DNA of 33,135 nt from SAR202 cluster bacterium (GTDB taxonomy: Bacteria; Chloroflexota; Dehalococcoidia; UBA3495): positions 1 to 33,135 of the forward strand of contig VFFT01000052.1 of the NCBI GenBank assembly GCA_009392775.1, read 5' to 3'. The position numbers were made by a program, and so were the translations under genes. The notes under the pieces are model-generated. The model ran no database searches. It had not been told where the DNA came from and was given only the letters and a program-made list of their open reading frames with translations. Shown here one piece after another: positions 27,600-31,198 of this stretch; position 1 is the first letter of the stretch, and each line of letters begins with the position of its first letter.

Positions 27600-27628
27600 A
27601 TTCTAAATCGATTATTGGGTGTGGTCAA
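27600..27628 (-). promoter_or_regulatory. purF promoter, very close to the start codon
   Basis: On the minus strand TTGACC (27623-27628) and TAGAAT (27600-27605) are exactly 17 bases apart, five of six matches each. The -10 box ends 6 bases before the GTG at 27593, so transcription should begin at or within a few bases of the start codon, giving a leaderless or nearly leaderless mRNA. No purine-box-like repeat was recognised nearby. Confidence 0.55.
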
Positions 27629-27707
27629 CGCCATATATAGGGCCGTTAAACCTGATCTGTTCGTACTGATTAAATGTCTTTTGCAGTTATTCGATAATTA
27701 AGCGAGT

Positions 27708-28379
27708 TTAGTCTTCTGAACTCCCGGCCGCGGGCATTATTTGGACTTTCCTATCATCACCATAGCCTACACTTTCCGTTGAAACACTAGCATTATCGGC
27801 TAAGGACATGTGAATCACACGTCTATCTGCGGCTGACATTGGTTCTAAGACAATTGTTCGTCCAGTCTGAGCAACTCGGGAAGCTACCCTTATCGCCATG
27901 TCCTTTAGAGAACCTTCTCGCCTCTGTCTATATCTTTCGACATCTACCATTATTCGTGCTCCATCAGGAGTACTGTCGTCATGCCGATTACGAGCAATCA
28001 TATTGACCATAAATTGTAAGGCTTGTAATGTCTGGCCTCTTCTTCCGATTAGCAGCCCTGCGTCTTCGCCCGTTATATCTATAATGGGACCGCCTACATC
28101 CTGGTCGTGCGCTGAGCGAATATTTATACCAACATTAATACCGGAGAGATCCAGTATCTCTTTCACTGTATTCATTGCAAAGGATGCCGTATCTCCACCT
28201 TCTGTAATCCTACGGACACGAACTCTAGCCAGCTCTGCTCCAATTCCAAGGAACCCGGCTTTGCCTCTACTTAGTATTTCTACCTCTACCTCGTTGCGGT
28301 CGGCGCCTAGTTCTTTCAGAGCCAGTTCTTCTGCCTCTTCTACGGTTCTGGCGGTTCGTATTACTGGTTCTTCCGTCAT
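27708..28379 (-). CDS. jag: Jag/SpoIIIJ-associated RNA-binding protein (KhpB)
   Basis: A 223-aa cytosolic RNA-binding protein that normally pairs with YidC/SpoIIIJ in the same operon. Order: the Jag N-domain (about 6-56, with RTARTVEEAEELALKELGAD and SRGKAGFLGIG), a KH domain (GGPIIDITGEDAGLLIGRRGQTLQALQFMVNMIA, about 90-125), and an R3H domain (LEPMSAADRRVIHMSLADN, about 175-200) with the expected R/H pair. ATG 28379 is firmly set by GAGGAGAT (28385-28392). Its first 37 codons lie inside the 3' end of yidC in another frame, a 113-base overlap on the same strand. Confidence 0.95.
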   Translation of the reverse strand: MTEEPVIRTARTVEEAEELALKELGADRNEVEVEILSRGKAGFLGIGAELARVRVRRITEGGDTASFAMNTVKEILDLSGINVGINIRSAHDQDVGGPIIDITGEDAGLLIGRRGQTLQALQFMVNMIARNRHDDSTPDGARIMVDVERYRQRREGSLKDMAIRVASRVAQTGRTIVLEPMSAADRRVIHMSLADNASVSTESVGYGDDRKVQIMPAAGSSED

Positions 28380-29199
28380 CGTCTATCTCCTCTGGAGTCT
28401 TATCTCTTTTCTGCTGAGTATTTGATTGAGATCGACTCGTTGCCGGCTCAGGTTTGGGAAACAATGGAAATAATGGTCCGAAGCCGGTTATAAAATACTG
28501 TATACCAATTCCTACAGCGTTGGATACTATCCAGTACAGTGGCAATCCGCTAGGCCATCCCAGCGAGAACACCCCTAAAAAGATCGGCATCATCCAAAGC
28601 ATCATATTTTGCGTAGACTGCTGCCTAGGATCAATAGATGGGGTCATGGTCATTTTTTGTTGAACCCAAGTAGAAGCAGCCACCAAGACAGGTAATACTA
28701 TATTCGTTGGGTCAGGTTCTGCAAGGTTTAACCACAAGAATCTGTCATTTAGTGGTGCGGCCTGATGAATTGGAACGAAAGTAACCCATGCATAGAGTCG
28801 GTCTGCCACACCCACAAGGTCATCTGGATTAGTTGGCAATACCTGAATAAGCACTCTAAATAACCCAATCAATATTGGCAGCTGGATAATAAGAGGGCCA
28901 ACACAACCCAGAGGACTGACTCCAGCTTCTTTGTACATTTTCATGGTTTCCTGGGATATTCTGGACCGGTCTCCTACATACCGTTCTTGAATCTCTTTCA
29001 TTTTCGGTTGCAGGGTAGTCATGGCTCTCATCTGCCGAATCTGCTTCAAAGTTAGAGGCAGCGTAATCAAACGGATCAATAGAGTAAACACAATAATGGC
29101 AATACCCATTTGATTGAAGAACAAGACATAGAACACCAGTAAGGTGTTCAACATAGGCCTTATAATACCCTCGTTCCAAAGAACTAAGAAAATTTCCAA
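28267..29199 (-). CDS. yidC: Membrane protein insertase YidC (Oxa1 family) with Arg-rich C-terminal tail
   Basis: A 310-aa inserting enzyme of the short Gram-positive-type form, without the large periplasmic domain. Helix 1 has IAIIVFTLLIRLITLPLTLKQIRQM, where the arginine in LLIRLI is the conserved groove residue. The cytosolic hairpin follows (QPKMKEIQERYVGDRSRISQETMKMYKEAGVSPLG), then GCVGPLIIQLPILIGLFRVL and the last helices ending LPLYWIVSNAVGIGIQYFI. The final 34 residues contain 14 Arg and one Lys, as in ribosome-binding YidC tails. About residues 274-310 are read from DNA that is also jag. The start is TTG 29199, with TAGGAA upstream. No signal sequence other than helix 1 is needed. 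Confidence 0.94.
   Translation of the reverse strand: MEIFLVLWNEGIIRPMLNTLLVFYVLFFNQMGIAIIVFTLLIRLITLPLTLKQIRQMRAMTTLQPKMKEIQERYVGDRSRISQETMKMYKEAGVSPLGCVGPLIIQLPILIGLFRVLIQVLPTNPDDLVGVADRLYAWVTFVPIHQAAPLNDRFLWLNLAEPDPTNIVLPVLVAASTWVQQKMTMTPSIDPRQQSTQNMMLWMMPIFLGVFSLGWPSGLPLYWIVSNAVGIGIQYFITGFGPLFPLFPKPEPATSRSQSNTQQKRDKTPEEIDDDGRTSNTNRQNRRRGRRTGSERTRRRPQRGRGRNTK
28385..28392 (-). promoter_or_regulatory. Strong ribosome binding site of jag inside yidC
   Basis: GAGGAGAT lies 5 bases before the jag ATG at 28379 and inside the yidC reading frame. It fixes the jag start and so shows that the yidC/jag overlap is real on the jag side. Confidence 0.8.
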
Positions 29200-29223
29200 G
29201 GATTCCTACCCCAACTTAAGATT

Positions 29224-30528
29224 TTATCCACACGGCTCTTTTTCTTTTGTGTCAAAACACCACAATTGGCTCTGAACTGACTTAATCTGTATACGCAGAA
29301 TCGTTCCTTCCTGACTACCAATGAATACTGACTCCCTTTGATTTCCTCCAGAGGCTTGCACGCCAGTCGTGCTCAAATCACTCTCATCTAATGGAATTGT
29401 ATATAGCGGAGCCTTTATCTCATCATCTGGTAGCGTTAGTGACGCTGTTACCGTATCCCCTGTGGCGGTCTCGAGCAGGGTTAATTTGCCATCTATTGAC
29501 GCTACTACAAGACCTCTAGGAACTAGAACCGGAGTAGAAACTATTGGAGAACCTAATTCATGAGACCACTGGGCGACACCATTGTTGTCAAGTGAATATA
29601 CATTTCCATCCATTGAACCCACAAACACCGAACGATTATTTCCTATAGCTGATCCCCATATCCAATTCTTAGTTTCAAATTCCCACTGAATCTCTCCATA
29701 TCTTGAATCCAGCGCATATACTTTTCTATCAAAGGAACCAACAATAACGAGATCATTCCATACAAATGGTTTCGCTACGATAACTCCATCAGTCGCCGTC
29801 CGCCACTTCTCTTTACCAGTGCTAATATCTAGAGCGTATATATTCTTGTCGTGAGAACCAAAATATACTATTCCGTTACTGATCTCAGGAGTTGTCCATA
29901 TTTTACCGTCAGCTTTAAAACGCCACAGCTCTTCAGAACTGACAGCATCCAAGGCATACAAATAACCGTTTTCCGAACCAACAATTAATATCTGTCGCAA
30001 CGTGTCTAATGCGGGCCCAGCTACCAGACTTTGCCCCTCATCCGGATCTACTAGTTCTCTTTTCCATCCTCTTCCATCTGAACGTCCAGTATCTTTTTCT
30101 AATGCGTATACAAACCCATCTACTGCAGTTACGTATATCAGATCATTGCCAATCACAGGAGTATAAAAAGTTCCAGAAACAGTCGTATCATCACCTGAAG
30201 GAAAAACCCATTTAACAGTGGGCACTGATCCGTCATCATACAGTGCTATAACCTTACCTTCTCGTGTCCCTGCATAAACGACATCGTCTGCAGCGGTAAC
30301 TGGAGTCCAACCCCGTGTGTCTGATCCCAAATGAGGAGTACAACCGATAACACCCATTAGAATGACAAGTAAAACCGAAATCCGACAGACACTCCTAATA
30401 AGAGAATGCCCTGTGGGTTTTTCACAGGTTGTAGAAGTCTGAATGTGGCTTGGACTGACTGAACCTAAATTATTGATCAAGTTAGTTATATGACAGGGTC
30501 GTGGCCCTTGCCCCCCCATGGTTGACAT
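29224..30528 (-). CDS. PQQ-like beta-propeller lipoprotein (BamB-like)
   Basis: A protein of up to 434 aa with repeated propeller blades of the PQQ enzyme type: [96 protein letters not shown] and [15 protein letters not shown]. The N-terminus has a hydrophobic run ending LMGVIGC, a good lipobox (C63 from ATG 30528). Start choice is uncertain: ATG 30528 or 30519 overlap yidD, while TTG 30480 lies 5 bases after the yidD stop; none has a Shine-Dalgarno sequence. Without an outer membrane it would sit on the outer face of the cell membrane. No catalytic residues of PQQ dehydrogenases are seen. It lies between yidD and yidC, an unusual place. Confidence 0.88.
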
Positions 30529-30698
30529 CGGCTGATGCGTTTAACCCCCATCACTACCCCCCTGATTACACCATATTTTGATATGGCTTCCGAGGTATAA
30601 GTAGAGCAGGAAGGCGTGTATCTACACATCGAGGGCAGATACGGCGATATCACAGCTTGATAACCTTTTATAGTGAAAAGCAATCCGCTTTTAATCAA
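30486..30698 (-). CDS. yidD: Membrane protein insertion efficiency factor YidD
   Basis: A 70-aa small membrane-associated protein that helps YidC insert proteins. Its hallmarks are [33 protein letters not shown] and [21 protein letters not shown], with three conserved cysteines and the final WGG-G-DPV. The start is TTG 30698, overlapping the rnpA stop by 4 bases (TTGA), with AAGGAG 5 bases before it, so translation is coupled to rnpA. The length is normal. Confidence 0.95.
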
Positions 30699-31060: not shown

Positions 31061-31198
31061 CTAGACGGTCAGATTGTGGCGACCCTTGAATCTGCGTCGC
31101 TTTAATACTGCTCTTCCGTCTGATGTCTTTGAACGTGATCTAAAGCCGTGCACTCTCATGCGACGACGTTTCTTTGGTTGATAAGTACGTTTTGGCAT
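31061..31198 (-). CDS. rpmH: Ribosomal protein L34
   Basis: A 45-aa very basic protein: [20 protein letters not shown], followed by the characteristic [23 protein letters not shown]. The [16 protein letters not shown] motif and the GRAVLxRRRxKGR motif are diagnostic. ATG 31198 is the only suitable start; GGAG lies about 13 bases before it, farther than usual. It is the first gene of the rpmH-rnpA-yidD-(lipoprotein)-yidC-jag unit. In many bacteria dnaA is nearby on the other side, but here a tRNA-Leu gene is divergent and dnaA is not seen. Confidence 0.97.

Follow-up and report, generated by a model that had tools for sequence, protein, structure and literature searches.

A long same-strand overlap of yidC and jag in Dehalococcoidia encodes a basic YidC tail and the start of the Jag_N domain

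Introduction

Can two conserved bacterial genes on one strand share more than 100 bases in different frames, with both proteins kept by selection? In the parts of a 2008 survey of 338 genomes drawn on here, 715 co-directional overlaps of more than 60 bp were examined and none was accepted, and the longest real co-directional overlap was that of holD and rimI, at up to 56 bp (PMC2478687). The question is raised by a stretch of 33,135 nucleotides from a SAR202 cluster bacterium (contig VFFT01000052.1; hereafter the window), for which a first-pass annotation had proposed that yidC and jag overlap by 113 bases and that the Arg-rich tail of YidC and the Glu-rich start of Jag come from the same DNA. 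No earlier report of a yidC–jag overlap was found in the open-licence literature, as judged by titles and abstract openings, and the portion of PMC8546722 used here makes no mention of Jag.

Results

Organization of yidC and jag in the window

The yidC gene, which encodes a YidC/Oxa1/Alb3 insertase, lies on the minus strand at 28267–29199 (310 amino acids, TTG start), as identified by the ORF call, Pfam, and NCBIfam. Its product belongs to the insertases, with a 60KD_IMP domain at residues 31–238 (28486–29109, minus strand; PF02096, E = 9.3e-54) and 187.2 bits against TIGR03592 (cut-off, 84.3). The jag gene (khpB/eloR), at 27708–28379 on the same strand, encodes 223 amino acids from an ATG start and contains the Jag_N (PF14804, E = 1.1e-17; Jag residues 9–56, 28212–28355, minus strand), KH (PF13083, E = 3.3e-10), and R3H (PF01424, E = 2.2e-15) domains. 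With 181.7 bits against the NCBIfam model Jag_EloR NF041568 (cut-off, 145), it is a full-length Jag/EloR/KhpB protein. The 113 bases shared by the two genes (28267–28379, minus strand) encode the Arg-rich tail of YidC and the first 37 residues of Jag in different frames; coordinates and frames agree with the first-pass annotation. Each YidC codon in the overlap consists of jag codon positions 3|1|2 (labelled phase 1), and the YidC frame does remain open past the jag ATG, with 36 sense codons and a TAG counted from the G of that ATG. The tail encoded by the overlap, DGRTSNTNRQNRRRGRRTGSERTRRRPQRGRGRNTK, has a net charge of +13 and is preceded by a cytoplasmic linker that joins it to the insertase domain (28380–28485, minus strand) and is fast-evolving in relatives.

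The strong ribosome site claimed for jag is present as the Shine-Dalgarno sequence GAGGAGAT at 28385–28392 on the minus strand, within yidC and 5 bases ahead of the ATG, and its GAGGAG reads as Glu-Glu in the YidC frame. The starts of yidC and jag are 820 bases apart, and jag therefore differs, with its own site, from the ambiguous-start type known from rnpA–rpmH, in which two starts share one ribosome site. Shine-Dalgarno matches of at least 4 bases at a spacing of 3–13 were found in 159 of the 168 overlapping loci, a count that is not independent of the start calls, which were partly chosen by this site. Pfam Jag_N covers 89 bases of the overlap (28267–28355), and choosing another start codon for jag would therefore leave the genes overlapping. 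YidC keeps the length of its orthologues and Jag_N itself is inside the overlap, as in a real co-directional overlap.

The gene order in the window is rpmH-rnpA-yidD-propeller-yidC-jag. Upstream of rnpA, a 45-amino-acid ORF resembling ribosomal protein L34 (rpmH, recognized by eye), shorter than the cut-off of the ORF list, is located at approximately 31061–31198 on the minus strand; L34 is highly basic. Between yidD (30486–30698, minus strand) and yidC is an ORF that looks by eye like a beta-propeller (29224–30528, minus strand); at its maximal length it shares 43 bases with yidD, although a Met further on means that this may be an effect of start choice only. A Ser-rich open frame of 175 codons at 27898–28425 on the plus strand is antisense to jag and the overlap, and is perhaps a by-product of wobble bias.

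Openness of the YidC frame and conservation of the tail

Synonymous resampling of jag codons left the YidC frame open to the observed point in 0.0055 of the trials, and permutation of jag's own codons gave an equally open frame in 0.010. Simulated open tails had a mean net charge of +7.0 (sd 2.6) as compared with the observed +13, and third-position T occurred in 2 of 36 codons in the overlap as opposed to 57 of 185 in the remaining jag. For many relatives the chance of openness per locus is modest (median 0.19; below 0.05 in 18 of 63 representatives, these being overlapping loci with less than 65% Jag identity). Openness alone thus proves little, and tests independent of openness were used.

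A protein search gave 1284 YidC homologues, 120 of which were listed. Among those 120, most are 290–315 amino acids long with the same C-terminal tail: 110 carry its strict form and 6 fail even a looser pattern. Three of these exceptions are short (P0029, P0067, and P0088; 216–240 amino acids) and stop ahead of the tail, and three have variant basic tails (P0034, P0105, and P0112). A sequencing frameshift near the YidC C-terminus, which the first-pass annotation had named as a possible source of error, was looked for and is excluded by the tails of the homologues; together with the 197 overlapping loci described below, the shared tail rules out frameshift and misannotation as candidates.

Distribution of the overlap

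Genomic loci were taken from a genome-contig scan (7 loci) and from searches by rank around the genome of locus L001, which covered 294 genomes at the level of class (266 matching), 247 at order (233), and 131 at phylum (128). The class sample comprised 141 loci out of the 266 matching genomes and was drawn mainly from the best-scoring ones, with 39 from lower-scoring matches and 13 obtained via the phylum search; since the lowest-scoring matches were left out, distant class members are under-sampled. Loci counted as class members if they came from the class or order search or were listed there, and L002–L004, L006, and the window were assigned via contig-scan relatives. Junctions were scored with an anchor on the TM5 motif.

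Scoring of 135 of the 141 loci in the class sample placed the yidC stop within Jag_N in 106, all in phase 1, and not in 29. All sources together gave 286 non-duplicate loci, and the 279 that were scored consisted of 226 members of the class Dehalococcoidia (window included) and 53 other Chloroflexota. The latter are phylum-search genomes outside the class list, some of which could be class members, although the tree places them elsewhere. The overlap that the first-pass annotation had suggested looking for in relatives was found in 197 of the 226 class members, always in phase 1, and in none of the 53 others (0/53), in 9 of which yidC and jag, as its start was chosen, share more than 4 bases although Jag_N is not reached. 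Among the 197 loci, the overlap exceeds 60 bases in 159, is 80–122 bases in 150, and is 26–50 bases in 33. The distance from the jag start to the yidC stop ranges from 26 to 179 bases; with tail length varying in this way, the exact tail end is not uniformly constrained. Since 29 of the 226 class members lack the overlap, it is dispensable in some lineages. In 5 of these 29, about 20 bases are shared with a possible GTG start of jag and Jag_N is not reached. L102, L103, L112, L113, and L126 of the class have a yidC stop 20–23 bases beyond a GTG that may start jag, and a long run of Arg, for example KRRRRRRRGRRRR, closes their YidC ahead of Jag_N; this is a different route to a basic YidC end.

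The overlap extends to cultured organisms. L203 has an 89-base overlap, and its YidC is 99% identical to the Dehalococcoides mccartyi protein P0241. By protein comparison only, the tail of P0317 from Dehalogenimonas formicexedens resembles those of the overlapping loci L199–L202.

Selection on the YidC frame

The main comparison used 47 tree-independent pairs of overlapping loci, in which fourfold-degenerate jag sites in the overlap were set against those downstream. Such sites differed at 114 of 576 positions in the overlap versus 1818 of 3716 downstream, and the proportion was lower in the overlap in 47/47 pairs (sign p = 1.4e-14). The direction was the same under a less strict limit on distance (190/717 versus 2380/4562; lower in 58/63 pairs), with greedy pairing (178/719 versus 2288/4409; 57/59), and with a second greedy pairing (183/648 versus 2145/4036; 50/55). 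In addition, 36 of 92 differences in the overlap were silent in the YidC frame, whereas 5.9 were expected from the downstream spectrum, and none of 20000 simulations reached 36; with greedy pairing, the count was 55 of 146 (10.3 expected), and all 55 were Arg-Arg changes.

The choice of wobble base follows the YidC reading. T before GG, GC, or GT, which gives Trp or Cys in YidC but no stop, occurred in 0 of 506 cases in the overlap (145 loci) versus 616 of 3690 downstream, whereas C in this position, which gives Arg, occurred in 312 of 506 versus 1340 of 3690. The 63 representatives behaved likewise (T, 0/238 versus 268/1483; C, 135/238 versus 520/1483). In the Jag_N of 49 non-overlapping representatives, T was found before these dinucleotides in 29 of 183 cases, and within the overlap the fraction of T before C-starting codons was 0.33 of 129. 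No Trp or Cys was present in the YidC-frame codons from the Jag_N start in any of the overlapping loci (197/197), as compared with 0.80 per 26 shifted-frame codons in 20 class members without the overlap and 1.19 in the 53 outsiders. The loci had been chosen for an open frame, a selection bias that removes TGA, TAA, and TAG but not Trp or Cys codons; because these readings are absent though they are not stops, more than an open frame has been kept. In 57 of 62 representatives the tail also carried more net charge than open simulations did on average (median, 10 versus 5.7), and in the other 5 it did not.

Both proteins are conserved across the 47 pairs. Jag identity was 92.6% in the overlap versus 81.9% downstream, and jag codon positions 1, 2, and 3 were all slower there (0.032, 0.044, and 0.188 versus 0.145, 0.090, and 0.452, respectively). 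YidC identity was 0.845 in the tail, 0.702 in the preceding linker, which also had 91 gap columns, and 0.894 in the TM5 region; at 84.5% identity versus 70.2% for the linker, the tail does not vary freely, as the first-pass annotation had allowed that it might. The joint constraint that it expected on both frames is thus seen: jag-silent sites are held back, in a manner specific to the YidC amino acids. This second-frame selection exceeds what the first frame imposes, as expected of an overprinted segment, and supports the interpretation of the region as true overprinting. Judging from the pattern of substitutions, the YidC frame is under protein-level selection.

Jag_N without the overlap

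Relatives in which YidC stops before Jag_N, which had been listed as grounds for doubt, do exist (29 of 226 in the class and 53 of 53 among other Chloroflexota), but they do not refute overprinting; they serve as negative controls. Over the same Jag_N stretch, non-overlapping loci differed at 85 of 210 fourfold sites versus 591 of 1222 downstream, lower in 10/15 pairs (p = 0.3); this dip has the same direction as the effect in overlapping loci but is far weaker. The looser limit (142/298 versus 902/1715; lower in 15/24 pairs, p = 0.31) and greedy pairing (164/327 versus 960/1866; lower in 13/26) agreed. Class members without the overlap gave 43/77 versus 246/470, lower in 4/8 pairs. Differences silent in the shifted frame numbered 2 of 68 in the non-overlapping loci (2.6 expected), 3 of 99 with the looser limit (3.2 expected), and 2 of 26 in class members without the overlap (0.8 expected). 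No significant trace of constraint was therefore found in the Jag_N of non-overlapping class members or other Chloroflexota. Stops in the shifted frame occurred within 26 codons in 18 of 20 class members without the overlap and in 36 of 53 outsiders.

Origin of the basic residues

The first-pass annotation had derived the Arg residues of the tail from the Glu codons of jag. This holds in that GAR is read as nGA in the YidC frame, but Arg (AGA or CGA) results only when the codon before ends in A or C; with G in that place the product is Gly, and with T a stop. A column count over 122 loci showed that Jag K-T-V-E-E-A becomes mainly Asn/Asp, Arg/Ser, Arg/Gly, Arg, and Ser/Gly in the YidC frame, and that the later Leu-Asp/Gly-Ala-Asp yields three YidC columns with 84, 89, and 74% Arg. 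According to the simulation, Jag conservation alone accounts for approximately half of the tail charge (5.7 of 10), and the rest is wobble choice. Over the final 30 residues of YidC, net charge had a median of +11 in 146 overlapping loci of the class and order, as expected of the strongly positive C-terminal extension of a ribosome-binding YidC/Oxa1 tail. Where the overlap is absent, it was +5.5 (18 loci) and, in the phylum set, +6 (53 loci); these medians are from junction scoring that covered 226 of 247 loci.

Evolutionary origin and a second phylum

In a FastTree tree built with the overlap columns left out (191 overlapping and 78 non-overlapping rows), the overlap state required 8 changes versus 68 with shuffled labels, and 7 were forced by starred branches. 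The tree has long branches, and the split from other Chloroflexota is weakly supported (78, in an earlier tree). In that earlier tree (232 rows, 7 changes), 50 non-overlap rows grouped together, namely, 49 from outside the class and class member L116, and the remaining class members without the overlap were scattered over several small clades. On these unrooted trees, the simplest reading is probably one gain near the base of Dehalococcoidia followed by several losses. Six loci outside the class (L228–L231, L234, and L249) have a yidC stop 14–17 bases into jag in the same phase and may possibly represent an intermediate state.

The junction was also scored in a second phylum, the one to which the Ruminococcus genome of L007 belongs and which we take to be Bacillota; Jag matched in 59 of its genomes, and loci from 30 of these were used. 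The yidC stop is within Jag_N in 5 of the 30, all in the same phase, and before it in 25; most of the 30 have a 4-base overlap or a gap. The overlaps in L261, L276, L280, L286, and L288 are 35–80 bases long in phase 1, and the YidC ends are rich in Lys/Arg; those of L286 and L288 are identical.

Discussion

The yidC–jag overlap of Dehalococcoidia is very probably a genuine case of same-strand overprinting that is old and has been maintained by selection on both proteins. The alternatives fare differently against this evidence. In the parts cited here, PMC2478687 regards co-directional overlaps of more than 60 bp as usually mispredictions, which would make a sequencing frameshift or gene-calling error the default reading; the same structure in 197 loci, the match of one overlapping locus to the D. 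mccartyi protein, and the position of the overlap within conserved Jag_N, which leaves no alternative jag start that would remove it, make this the least credible explanation, with a negligible probability. Passive run-on, by which yidC lost its stop and the next in-frame stop happens to be inside jag, leaving a functionless tail, is scarcely more credible. Jag_N alone does give basic peptides in the YidC frame (open simulations, median +5.7), and another phylum has overlaps of the same phase (5 of 30 loci), but silent jag sites are held back in every one of the 47 pairs, YidC-silent change is approximately six times that expected, and Trp and Cys are excluded besides stops. Run-on is refuted for the class as a whole, though it may still account for individual lineages in which the overlap is short.

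It is also very improbable that an RNA element or a jag initiation signal, such as weak 5' structure or a codon ramp, constrains the region and leaves the open YidC frame as a by-product. The region contains the start site, and its fourfold sites are A-rich ahead of GA codons, as such a signal might require; however, Jag_N without the overlap is not significantly constrained inside or outside the class, and the bias follows the YidC amino acid, with T absent before GG, GC, and GT and allowed before C. A search of 27600–29300 against Rfam gave no match up to E = 1, and with the unconstrained non-overlapping loci this largely refutes an RNA element. An explanation that is unlikely but deserves more weight than these places selection on the YidC tail during its own synthesis: the Arg-rich nascent chain would delay ribosomes crossing the jag start, Jag output would thereby be matched to YidC synthesis, and the finished tail would be of lesser importance. 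The ribosome site and start of jag do lie under the path of yidC elongation, and a preference for Arg would suit an effect of the basic nascent chain as well, but the 33 loci with overlaps of 26–50 bases would have little tail beyond the jag start, and YidC ends are basic in Chloroflexota without the overlap too (median +6, 53 loci), which points to a role of the tail itself.

Under overprinting with a functional tail, the yidC stop would have moved into jag in the 3|1|2 frame, in what was probably a single event at the base of Dehalococcoidia or close to it. The acidic start of Jag_N (A/G-K-T-V-E-E-A ... E-L-D/G-A-x-R-x-E-V-E-V) would then have been read as a polar, Arg-rich peptide in the YidC frame, because the GA and GG of Glu, Asp, and Gly codons become AGA, CGA, AGG, or CGG after a wobble A or C. 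Selection subsequently favoured wobble A or C and removed readings as stop, Trp, or Cys, with the outcome that YidC has a conserved basic tail and Jag_N is kept. By analogy with other YidC/Oxa1 proteins, the likeliest role of the tail would be that of a basic extension that docks on the ribosome. Translation of jag would presumably begin independently at its own Shine-Dalgarno site within the last 40 or so codons of yidC, given how far past the jag start yidC ends.

Known systems resemble this one in part. Like yidC–jag, holD–rimI of Enterobacteria is described in the cited parts of PMC2478687 as a real, conserved same-strand terminal overlap in which both proteins match orthologues, but it is 32–56 bp long and confined to one bacterial group, whereas yidC–jag overlaps by 80–122 bases in 150 of 197 loci, is class-wide, and has measured selection in two frames. 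The rnpA–rpmH pair of Thermus, as presented in the relevant part of PMC9841429, likewise uses two frames of one strand and belongs to the gene neighbourhood of yidC and jag; it differs in being a nested gene with adjacent starts and a single ribosome site, whereas the yidC–jag overlap is terminal with a separate start and site. Ordinary yidC–jag junctions, with a 4-base or short overlap or a gap, have the same gene pair and order but differ in that YidC ends before Jag_N (53/53 other Chloroflexota and 25/30 loci of the Ruminococcus phylum). The constant phase carries little weight by itself as evidence of overprinting, because one phase is in any case favoured among long same-strand overlaps of bacteria, according to the part of PMC2542354 considered. 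For the ribosome-binding C-terminal extensions of YidC, Oxa1, and Alb3, the cited source is reportedly Seitl et al. 2014. The basic C-termini of these proteins contribute to ribosome binding, as stated in the cited section of PMC8733628, and they share with the Dehalococcoidia tail a positive C-terminus after a five-helix core; in Dehalococcoidia, by contrast, the charged stretch shares its DNA with the following gene, and ribosome binding is putative.

More generally, we tentatively propose, at somewhat less than even confidence, that the start of Jag_N holds a reusable two-protein code in its deeply conserved acidic motif: each time yidC came to end inside jag in that phase, YidC would gain a predicted ribosome-binding tail. 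Dehalococcoidia would have fixed this arrangement early, at their base or close to it, and then refined it one residue at a time, the Ruminococcus phylum would have reached it independently, and Jag expression would be tied to ribosome traffic on yidC. Because cultured Dehalococcoides carry the overlap, its translation and function are directly testable. The lineages without it form a built-in control set, and selection can be measured residue by residue. The yidC–jag pair is a long same-strand overlap across a class, between two conserved housekeeping genes and of a kind dismissed as annotation error, and it illustrates how overprinting may start from a coding bias, here an acidic motif that reads as a basic tail, and then be refined.
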